In this document: in pieces, positions 57,700 to 64,000 of the stretch
How the letters are laid out: each line of letters begins with the position of its first letter
How positions within the stretch are numbered: the stretch's first letter is position 1
DNA from: Pseudofabraea citricarpa
Taxonomy: Eukaryota > Ascomycota > Leotiomycetes > Helotiales > Dermateaceae
Direction of reading: 5' to 3'
DNA length: 64,000 nt
Assembly: GCA_029641185.1 (NCBI GenBank)
Contig: JAPWGK010000017.1
Span: forward strand, 1,116,001 to 1,180,000
Translations under genes and position numbers: made by a program
Notes under the pieces: model-generated
Seen by the model: only the letters and a program-made list of their open reading frames with translations
Databases searched by the model: none
Told to the model about the DNA's origin: nothing

Positions 57700-59358
57700 T
57701 AACTCATCTGGGGTTCATTTCGATAGCGACATGAATCCATGAGCATGGGTCAAGTAAAGAGGAGATCCGCCGAGCTCCTTGGAAATCTCACCAGCAATCT
57801 CTCTTGTGGGATCGTTTGCGTCCAGATTGGCCAGGTGCATCTGATCGAGGAGAAACTCAGACCCCTCTTTTGCATCGAAAGGTTCCAAATCCAGCTGATG
57901 ATTCGTCCCGGGAGTAGATAGTTGTAAAGTCACAATGATAGCGCTTGCCTTCCTAAACTTCGATGGCCAGAATCGTGCGATATTCTTCCACTCAACGACA
58001 TTATCAAAAATCGATAACCAACGCAGATCTACAGACCCGAGTCTAGACCCGACAGTCTGTAAACAGGACCCTGAAGAAGAGGAGATAGACCAACCTTCGG
58101 TCTGAACCTATTCAAGCATAATCTCTATATGCGGCTGCACAATAACATCTGTATCAAAAAGCCCTAACCGCCTGCCAATATTGCCAAAAGTTCTCAAGGT
58201 CTCGGTTTCTTCTTCAGGGTCCGCACTTACCTAGAATACTGCATCAAAGGCCTTCTTGTATTTGTATAAGAACTTTAACGCAGTTTCCGTTTTCCCAATC
58301 CCGCCAATTCCATGGATAGCACAGGATAGTGGCCTGGGTTCCTTGTGTGATAGGATCAATATGCTATGCAGCTTGTTGAGTTCGGCATCTCGCCTACTGA
58401 AGTCCGAATTCTCGGCAATAAAGACGGATTCAACAGGGAATTGAATGTTAGCATTATTCCTCTGTCGTGTCCCATTAGTCTGTGTAGTAAGAATTATCAA
58501 CTGGCCTTGTATTCTCTCGTCGGCTGTTATCACACAGGAAGGTTCCGCAGTTTTGACTACTCTGTCGAAGTCAGAGACATCACCTTTGAGTTTTGTCTTC
58601 ACCGAGTTAAGATTCTGGCGTAGAGAAGAAGACCAGATGTTACGAAGGAATCCGACGATATTTGCATCAGATTAGCTGCAGAAGAAAGAGCGAGGGGTAG
58701 TACGTACGCAAAGGATTTAACATTGTCTGCAAGCTGTATTCTATTGCTTCGCTTTTCGGATAAAGACTCATGTCCTTTTGGAAATATGGAAGGAGTTTTT
58801 TAAGATCTGCCAACTTGGAAAGGATACCCTCGATGTTTTTAGCGAATATGCAACCGCACTGAAGTCATTTGATTGGTCTCTGTTTCGTTCTTAGGGCTTC
58901 GTCCAACATTCCTGAATAACAATGAACAGCAGACCCCATACCAAGGAGCCCGTTGGCTCATAATGCACTGTCGAAGCAATCCCATTACTGAAAAAACAAA
59001 CATGGTCCAAAATAGGGTACAAGTACTTTGTGAACAAAGTCGGAACTCGTTTGCTGGCGAATTGCCGAGCAAGTGCTTGCACAGCGACGTGGAACGAGTT
59101 TACGTCTTTGTGGGAAAAAGCTTTGTCGAGGGTAGCAGGTTTAGGAGCTTGAATGCCTTTCTTCCGTTGTTTGAGCTCTAGGCGATTTAGCAACGTTCCA
59201 AAGTCTCCGCCCAGACACGTTCGGACGACATCGCTGCTCACCGTGTACTCGGTGTTTCCGTCTTTGTGTTTCTCTCGGACTGATGGTATATAACACAAGG
59301 CGATTATGAATAGATACATGGTCTGAACTTTGAAAACATAGTTGCAGCAGCGGAACAA
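57697..59358 (-). pseudogene. Fungal NLR-like (STAND/NB-ARC) protein, truncated and with in-frame stops
   Basis: The N-terminal exon (about 59358-58900) resembles the DUF7708-type domain of fungal NLR-like proteins (SLVWGLLFIVIQ, ILDHVCFFSNGI). After introns comes IEYSLQTM, then the P-loop IHGIGGIGKTETALKFLY (58300-58345) and AVF followed by a stop where families have Trp. The frame continues through RWLSIFDNV (Walker B-like), STPGTN and LGGSPLYLTHAHGF. In-frame stops stand at 58231-58233 (TAG), 58108-58110 (TAG) and 57715-57717 (TGA), all in one frame. Winged-helix and repeat regions are missing. Intact relatives act in non-self recognition and cell death. Confidence 0.85.
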
Positions 59359-59761
59359 GCCCCTGCTTCATGCATATACTATAACACAGGACAAAGGCGG
59401 AAACGCCTTACGAGGAAGGAAAACCAAGTTTCAAATCAAGAGAAAACGCCTGACATAGGAGCCAGCCAGCCATTTGGGGGCTGAACAAGGAGGCCTCACG
59501 TCCACACCTGTGGAGGTCTGTTGTGTTACTTGTCTTCAATCCCGTCCGCAGCATACACCACATCAGCAGCTCTTCGCAGCAACGCTAATACTAGTGGCTA
59601 CTTGCAGCTCAGTCCCCAAATTCGCCCAGGATTTGTTGTTCATTACTCATGCTCTACCTTGTGACTTTCCCAACTTCATCCCTTAACCTGTGGCAATATC
59701 AGCCCACTATATCTTACTGCCGCTCCACCATTTGAATCATCTACACTCATCATTATTTTGC
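59359..59761. other. Intergenic, divergent promoter of NLR-like pseudogene and beta-lactamase-like gene
   Basis: About 400 bases without a supported gene. The stretch is repeated in reverse complement at 63515-63917 because of the assembly artefact. Confidence 0.5.
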
Positions 59762-61796: not shown

Positions 61797-63514
61797 AAGT
61801 CAGGTCCCTGGTCAGCACCAACCCACCGACCACGTCTCGACAGTTCATTTCGAGGCTGAAGCCAGATGAAAGTGTCATTCTCATAATAAGTGAGCGTGAA
61901 CTTTTCAGAGTCCAATCCTTGGAGCGCCCAAGACAACGTATCTCCCTCGAGTGTCACCAGAATCTTGAATATTTTCTCTTTGTCCCAGTATGTTCCAAGG
62001 TAGTCACTCAATAGCTTCGGGGATGTACCGACCTTTTGAGCCTCTTTCAGCTCCTTGATGAGATCGGGGTGCCATTTCAAATTCTCGGCGGCCGATGCCT
62101 GGGCAAGTTTGACATAGTCATTTCTCTCTGAAGTTGGAACTTCAAGGAATTCCTCCAATACAAGTTGCCCAATCCAGTCGGGTACATCATTGAGAGCAAG
62201 TGCATTAGTCTGGACTACGATGGCACTTTCAGTTTGTGGGTGAAGTATCACGATAGAGAGAGCACCAGCTCCACTTCCTTGGTGGAATAAGACCAGTTGA
62301 GAAGAAATCCCCTTGCCGACGATGGGCATGCCATCGGGTAGCAGGCCAGGGTTGATTCCAATTTGACCCATTCGTCCTGGAAGCTGAACTCGCTGCCAGC
62401 CCATGGCATAAGAGATTTCATGCTGTGATGGCTGGTCGTTTGGAATTTTTGAAGACATCAATTCGGTCACCTGCCTGAGTGGCGAGCCTCCCGTGGACGT
62501 CTTGCCAGTGGCGAACTGATCGTTGAAGCTCATGAGCCATGCTTTGTAGAGCTTCATGAGGTCCCGTATAGATGTACGCATTCCCGTTCCTGCTACTCCC
62601 CACCAATCGTCACCCAATTTGAGACAAGGAACAGGCGCTGAAGTTCCATCGTCGAGAGCATTGTAACAAATTGCAACGTTGTCTGTGTCAGAAGAAGGGG
62701 TCTTAAGGGTGGTGCGGTCCATCCCTAGATTCTTGATGATGCGTTTGTGTACGAAATCGAAGTAAGATTCACCGCTCAAAGCTTCGATGACTTTCCCGGC
62801 AACGTCAATGCCAATATTGTTGTACGAGAACTGGTATCGAAATGGAAGGAGGCGAGTCTGGCTATTAATATACTTCATGGCATCGTCAGAACTGATGAGC
62901 ACGTTATTTTCCGTGCCGATGAAGAGATTGTCGCCCCAAGCCATGCCGGTTCGATGACACAGGAGATCGGTTATGGTTGCGCAATTCGCCAAGGTATCGT
63001 CTTGCGGATGAAAGCCTGGTAGCGCGTCCTTGACTAATGTGTTCCACTCTGCTTTCTTCTCATCCACCAGTATTCCCATAGCAGCTGCTGTAACGGCTTT
63101 TGTCAAAGAGCAAACGGGGAAAATCGTATCTTGGGTGACTGGCAGCTTCTTCTCGACATCGCGAAAGCCATAAGCGGCATAGTAGATCTGTTTGCCTCGA
63201 TGCAAGAAGCCAAATGAAGCTCCAGGTGTTCCTCCTATGGCCATTATCTTCTCGATTGTAGGCCGCAAAGCGTCAAGTCGAGCAGGGAGGTCCCCCATTT
63301 TCTTGGCTGAGTAAACAAATCAGCAGAGATCCTATCCTCCGCATTGGAAGCATCAGAAAAAGCAGGACTCTCAAGACTTACGTCTGCAGGACAGCGGGTA
63401 GGAGGAAAATAGACCTCGGACGCCTATGAACTCTCGTGACAAAAGAGTGGTCGCGACGACAAAAACGAAGGCAGCGATGGAATGGCGCAACAACGAACAC
63501 ATACGCAGAAGCAT
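61784..63514 (-). other. Mirror copy of the beta-lactamase-like gene (artefact)
   Basis: Every base pair from 59762-61492 recurs here in reverse complement: exon 2 at 63306-61784, exon 1 at 63514-63382, with identical predicted protein and no indels (positions sum to 123,276). It is a fold-back read artefact and should not be annotated as a second gene. Confidence 0.92.
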
Positions 63515-64000
63515 GCAAAATAATGATGAGTGTAGATGATTCAAATGGTGGAGCGGCAGTAAGATATAGTGGGCTGATATTGCCACAGGTTAAGGGATGA
63601 AGTTGGGAAAGTCACAAGGTAGAGCATGAGTAATGAACAACAAATCCTGGGCGAATTTGGGGACTGAGCTGCAAGTAGCCACTAGTATTAGCGTTGCTGC
63701 GAAGAGCTGCTGATGTGGTGTATGCTGCGGACGGGATTGAAGACAAGTAACACAACAGACCTCCACAGGTGTGGACGTGAGGCCTCCTTGTTCAGCCCCC
63801 AAATGGCTGGCTGGCTCCTATGTCAGGCGTTTTCTCTTGATTTGAAACTTGGTTTTCCTTCCTCGTAAGGCGTTTCCGCCTTTGTCCTGTGTTATAGTAT
63901 ATGCATGAAGCAGGGGCTTGTTCCGCTGCTGCAACTATGTTTTCAAAGTTCAGACCATGTATCTATTCATAATCGCCTTGTGTTATATACCATCAGTCCG
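63515..64000 (-). other. Mirror copy of the flank and NLR-like 5' end (artefact)
   Basis: Reverse complement of 59276-59761; the final bases CATCAGTCCG mirror CGGACTGATG at 59276. The mirror arm runs off the window edge, so the artefact continues beyond it. Confidence 0.9.

Follow-up and report, generated by a model that had tools for sequence, protein, structure and literature searches.

Palindromic reads have been traced to missed SMRTbell adapters (Pacasus, PMC6218980), and the artefact class that concerns us here is already in print, as those missed adapters (PMC6218980) and as type D of HiFiAdapterFilt (PMC8864876). Fold-back reads more generally are flagged by Breakinator; mirror-image reads can tangle assemblies or yield false structural variants, and under half of those that the program flags carry searchable sequence between their segments (PMC12870357). 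The SMRTbell adapter sequence itself is printed in both directions in one paper (PMC12745853) and in one direction in another (PMC8864876). In the open-licence literature, searched with a few wordings, we noticed no report of adapter fold-backs specifically at telomeres.

The locus described here lies in a 64-kb window, by which we mean the whole stretch of DNA analysed (C9:1116001-1180000), on contig C9 (1,191,798 bases) of an assembly of 43 contigs and 43,985,132 bases (44.0 Mb). Judged from its sequence, the head-to-head telomere structure on C9 is almost certainly a fold-back through an unremoved barcoded SMRTbell adapter, lying over an open chromosome end. A first-pass annotation had already proposed an adapter fold-back at this place; beyond it, we find that the mirror is 3 kb longer, that four other telomeres are tagged, and that the first of the two hydrolase ORFs appears to be cut.

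Layout of the mirrored end

Read rightward, the C9 junction consists of a telomere, a barcode, an adapter, the reverse complement of the barcode, a noisy reverse telomere and a reverse-complemented arm. The genuine chromosome-end arm (window positions 56234..61521, forward strand; C9:1172234-1177521) has its reverse complement, with one mismatch, at C9:1177755-1183042. The window edge clips the arms to 59276-61521 and 61755-64000, 2246 nt each with 233 nt between them. On the contig, C9:1172234 pairs with 1183042 and no second mismatch occurs, so that the mirror extends 3 kb beyond the window before it gives way to junk. The false arm, on the reverse strand, begins at 61755, leaves the window at 64000 and continues to C9:1183042, with 8.76 kb of junk from there to the contig end. 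The first-pass annotation had described a perfect inverted duplication with a coordinate sum of 123,276; the arms and the sum hold, but "perfect" does not, as one mismatch lies at C9:1177509 (window 61509), within the telomere tract, and "100% complementary" is a rounded figure.

TTAGGG and CCCTAA tracts meet at the centre of the mirror, as had been noted, the second of them noisy. The first tract (61486..61590, forward strand) looks genuine, with 105 bp of TTAGGG repeat including two TTTAGGG. It is followed by an exact 16-base PacBio barcode, CTATACATGACTCTGC (61591..61606, forward strand), which was located by genome search and stands as 'Barcode 2' in the primer list of a PacBio RS II workflow (PMC9096486), the only one among the papers searched to contain the 16-mer or its reverse complement. 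Next comes an error-bearing SMRTbell hairpin adapter of 44 bases (61607..61650, forward strand), recognised by alignment to the published sequences (PMC12745853, PMC8864876), and then, from our reading and alignment of the junction, a reverse-complemented copy of the barcode containing one inserted base (61655..61671, reverse strand). The second telomere (61672..61790, reverse strand) is false, being the same tract taken from the other strand with its errors uncorrected.

The annotation had placed an error-bearing adapter between a 16-base tag and its reverse complement, and had suggested aligning the junction to PacBio adapter and barcode sequences. Both do match the printed sequences: the published adapter together with the barcodes aligns to the C9 junction with a score of 118, where shuffled sequences (n=500) reach at most 31, and the adapter alone scores 62 against at most 32 (n=500), the alignment to the published adapter requiring several indels. 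C9 has a central adapter, a barcode before it and the reverse-complemented barcode after it, and reverse-complemented sequence beyond; its telomere tracts are separated by foreign DNA rather than joined to each other directly, as they would be in a telomere-telomere fusion.

The genuine arm carries a serine hydrolase ORF of 504 aa (59978..61492, forward strand), with a Beta-lactamase domain (PF00144) and a partial DUF3471 domain (PF11954). The second ORF (61784..63298, reverse strand) is a false copy, in the mirrored arm, of this truncated gene. The earlier claim that neither the second telomere nor the second hydrolase ORF is real is thus upheld, both being copies of the first.

Fold-backs at other telomeres and the junk beyond them

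Screening the rest of the assembly for the same adapter, another check that had been suggested, showed that C2 and C35 match the adapter, that C12 has a fold-back and that C39 ends on the barcode. The sequence (TTAGGG)3 occurs at 107 places in the assembly, 13 of them on C39, and nine telomeres are assembled: both ends of C1, and one end each of C2, C9, C12, C23, C24, C35 and C39. In this count mirrored tracts are taken once and an exact 18-mer is required, so noisier telomeres would escape. The barcode is present at five of the nine, exactly on C9 and C39, with one mismatch on C35, and with indels on C12 and C2. These last two were read by eye and then scored by alignment of the barcode-plus-adapter construct, which gave 47 for C12 (shuffle maximum 30) and 83 for C2 (maximum 31). 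At one mismatch or fewer the barcode occurs at three places in 44.0 Mb, all three at telomeres; the 25 two-mismatch places are near what chance would give (28 places in total versus 22 for a reversed control pattern).

Fold-backs are found at four of the tagged ends, C9, C2, C35 and C12, with a significant adapter match in the first three. The adapter alone scores 44 on C2 and 39 on C35, versus shuffle maxima of 25 and 27, and 0 of 500 shuffles reach either value. On C12 the fold-back has a barcode on each side of a spacer of about 100 nt (about C12:58874-59025), which is strongly palindromic (128 versus a shuffle maximum of 33, n=300) and gives no significant match to the adapter (26 in the better orientation, reached by 3 of 500 shuffles). 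The C12 mirror has 99.7% identity at 44897-72999, both arms being in the alignment, and positions 1-3000 pair with 114896-117895 at 100%. The mirror on C2 has 90% identity, again with both arms in the alignment, and the false arm of C35 is 79-80% identical to the true one. A glycosyltransferase copy in the false arm of C2 has six stops and 47% identity, as is expected of a raw read. C39 stops exactly on the last base of the barcode, which is joined to the telomere. Of the five tagged ends, C2 has a tract of about 80 bp, and the tracts of the other four measure 105 to 125 bp.

Ungapped patterns were of limited sensitivity. A genome search for the adapter core at three mismatches or fewer, from which adapters with indels escape, found no place. 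A second piece of the adapter, searched in the same way, found C35 and one three-mismatch place on C7, apparently a chance match; C9 and C2 escape these patterns because of their indels. A pattern built with the adapter errors of the window itself found C9 only, the other adapters with indels again escaping.

Added together, the false sequence comes to about 86 kb, provided that the C12 mirror, compared around its centre and at its outer ends, is continuous: C12 contributes about 58.9 kb, C9 14.2 kb, C2 8.5 kb and C35 4.6 kb. As the annotation had predicted, gene counts, telomere counts and claims of chromosome fusion are affected, and those taken from this assembly would err at four contigs.

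Beyond the mirrors, the sequence changes character. On C9 the last part of the contig (C9:1183043-1191798, 8.76 kb) includes a stretch with 25 C in 7777 bases (C9:1184022-1191798), and C2:1-7236 contains one C in 7236 bases, C returning at base 7237, which adjoins the outer limit of the mirror at 7241. Just two ORFs of at least 80 codons overlap C9:1182800-1190000, both on the mirrored arm and neither extending past 1183180, and 3 kb of the C9 tail used as a genome-search query matched only itself. One candidate for the C-poor ends of C9 and C2 was a noisy or C-masked fold-back arm in which C had been dropped or called as T, A or G. We compared 4000 bases starting at C9:1184022, and the last 4000 of the first 7000 of C2, each with 9 kb of expected continuation and with five unrelated stretches. 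Under the four modes the C9 tail scored 201 to 832 and the five controls 132 to 852. The tail fell within the control range in three modes and exceeded all five controls in the C-to-A mode (201, the highest control being 163). Without alteration the tail scored 45 and the controls 32 to 46. For the C2 head, the C-to-G mode alone gave a score above the control range (1013, the highest control being 993). Arms simulated at 20-30% error, for C9 alone, scored 3468 to 5668, far above the C9 tail, and this candidate was rejected for C9. The 979 bp that separate the C9 mirror from the C-poor stretch likewise failed to match the expected continuation, scoring 39, with controls at 36-42 and positive controls at 965 and 1369.

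The 8.76 kb tail of C9 does not look like a continuation of the arm, which counts against the completeness of the fold-back account. In the forward direction of the contigs, the polarity of the adapter is identical in C9, C2 and C35, so that, in the direction of reading, the two C-poor stretches are deficient in one and the same base, and they fit a failure of base calling in unpolished reads. Long runs of G are also seen: the adapter on C35 contains one, and contig C43 (C43:1-600) opens with at least 600 consecutive G, probably read junk.

The fold-back would arise as follows. A barcoded SMRTbell hairpin would be ligated to a natural chromosome end, and the polymerase would read outward on one strand, round the adapter and return along the other strand. 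If the adapter is then missed, as it probably was here because of its errors, and the read is left unsplit, the two passes would stay one read. In a chromosome interior, normal reads would outvote such a read; past a natural end there are none, and for this reason the assembler may extend the contig with the fold-back read, after which reads from the real arm would polish the false one. The various states of the false arms (79-80% on C35, 90% on C2, 99.7% on C12 and one mismatch on C9) fit raw reads before and after polishing. The annotated view that the polymerase passed the adapter and read the other strand agrees with what is directly visible, namely an adapter with barcodes at the centre of a mirror, a second telomere that is noisy, and similar structures with the same barcode at other telomeres.

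Two telomere tracts that meet, and arms that agree over 5.3 kb with one mismatch, would also follow from a true head-to-head fusion of telomeres or an isochromosome-like duplication in which a chance misassembly had placed the adapter. However, neither adapter nor barcode is expected between fused tracts, and the presence of both at the centre refutes a fusion for practical purposes. The C9 mirror also ends after 5.4 kb and passes into junk, similar structures in varied stages of polishing stand at three other telomeres, and C39 stops on the barcode, all of which make a fusion extremely improbable. We give still less credence to the idea that the chromosome ends in a covalently closed hairpin, which was read through its turn. 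This would produce the mirror structure in itself, but without any need for an adapter, and ligation of one to a closed end would be impossible, whereas an adapter is present, and the C39 end is open, its barcode joined to the telomere.

Genes at the telomere junctions

Beneath the artefact there appears to lie a chromosome end that is open and at which the telomere starts within the 3' end of the hydrolase gene. The first C9 telomere looks real, as the tract, the barcode and the bare end of C39 point to this as the place where the DNA ended. The C-terminus encoded by the hydrolase ORF is ...GPDFWKG, and the stop is the TAG of GGTTAG, which comes from the telomere repeat; the repeat directly abuts the coding sequence. 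Homologues numbered 254 among 7993 candidates scored, and the comparison was made on the 120 listed. Of these, 99 extend at least 20 residues beyond the end of the hydrolase, the median of all 120 being 29 residues, and the closest listed homologue, 89% identical, is 29 residues longer. The assembly holds no close full copy: outside the mirrored pair there are six matches, all at most 36% identical. On this comparison of sequences, the telomere appears to cut the hydrolase gene, with about 29 C-terminal residues missing.

Alternatively, the hydrolase may be a naturally short variant with the telomere lying just beyond the gene. Nineteen of the 120 listed homologues extend five residues or fewer, but 17 of them end before the query, inside the aligned region, so that two end within five residues of the query end; a further two extend by only 13-14 residues. 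Set against the 99 that go on for at least 20 residues, among them the closest by 29, and against a stop codon that consists of telomere repeat, these few short homologues leave a naturally short hydrolase improbable.

A second gene ends in a similar way. An OCH1-like glycosyltransferase ORF of 253 residues (PF04488; L013:8577-9338 on C2, reverse strand), seemingly cut by the telomere, ends in ...NLNMGA, with its TAG stop supplied by GCTTAGGG where the repeat abuts the coding sequence. In a comparison of 120 listed homologues out of 400 found, 118 extend at least 20 residues past its end and one extends five residues or fewer, with a median of 56; the protein is about 56 to 60 residues shorter than its relatives. 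Its best named matches are from Bisporella and Phialocephala, which are helotialean fungi, a hint that the DNA comes from a leotiomycete, and the next-nearest match in the assembly, on C3, is 57% identical.

These two junctions suggest that the telomere repeats of C9 and C2 were seeded inside genes. At least two of the nine telomeres begin inside coding sequence. Both cut genes are in the frame in which TTAGGG gives a stop, for which the chance in two cases is about 1 in 9. On C23 a candidate frame of 62 residues also meets TAG at the telomere, C39 and an end of C1 have candidate frames of 90 to 101 codons across the junction, and C24 and C35 have no frame of at least 80 codons across it. We lean towards the view that at least two of the nine chromosome ends were made by seeding of repeats in the 3' ends of genes, in the frame that gives TAG, and that, instead of maintaining repeat-rich subtelomeres, the fungus may renew its ends by breakage and healing. 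If so, terminal genes would be shortened yet cleanly terminated. Separately, two serine-rich frames that look alike by eye, L017:937-1254 (C23) and one at the end of L020 (C1 end), lie within about 1.3 kb of telomeres and are perhaps a shared subtelomeric repeat.

Comparison with known systems

With the artefact set aside, what merits attention biologically is the cut genes. The barcode marks the last ligated base of the DNA, giving tract lengths and exact junctions, two of them in genes. Natural chromosome ends may be worth screening first where adapters go unremoved, as there nothing would outvote a fold-back. Chromosome healing by de novo telomere addition is a known phenomenon, which the C9 and C2 ends resemble in that the repeats are joined straight to coding sequence. 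They differ in being known from the end product alone, and telomerase or recombination could have placed the repeats.

Among the described artefacts, the palindromic reads of Pacasus share both cause and read structure with the present cases; that account, in the sections available to us, concerns reads and leaves telomeres unmentioned (PMC6218980). Breakinator likewise deals with mirror-image reads, but its fold-backs are described chiefly from Nanopore data, and the three PacBio samples are without systemic fold-backs (PMC12870357). The nearest relative of the C9 structure is type D of HiFiAdapterFilt, in which an unremoved SMRTbell adapter likewise leaves a false inverted duplicate on one side (PMC8864876). 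Unlike that type, the raw parts here resemble error-rich continuous long reads rather than HiFi reads, to judge from arms at 79-80% identity, and the present cases stand at natural chromosome ends, with a barcode.
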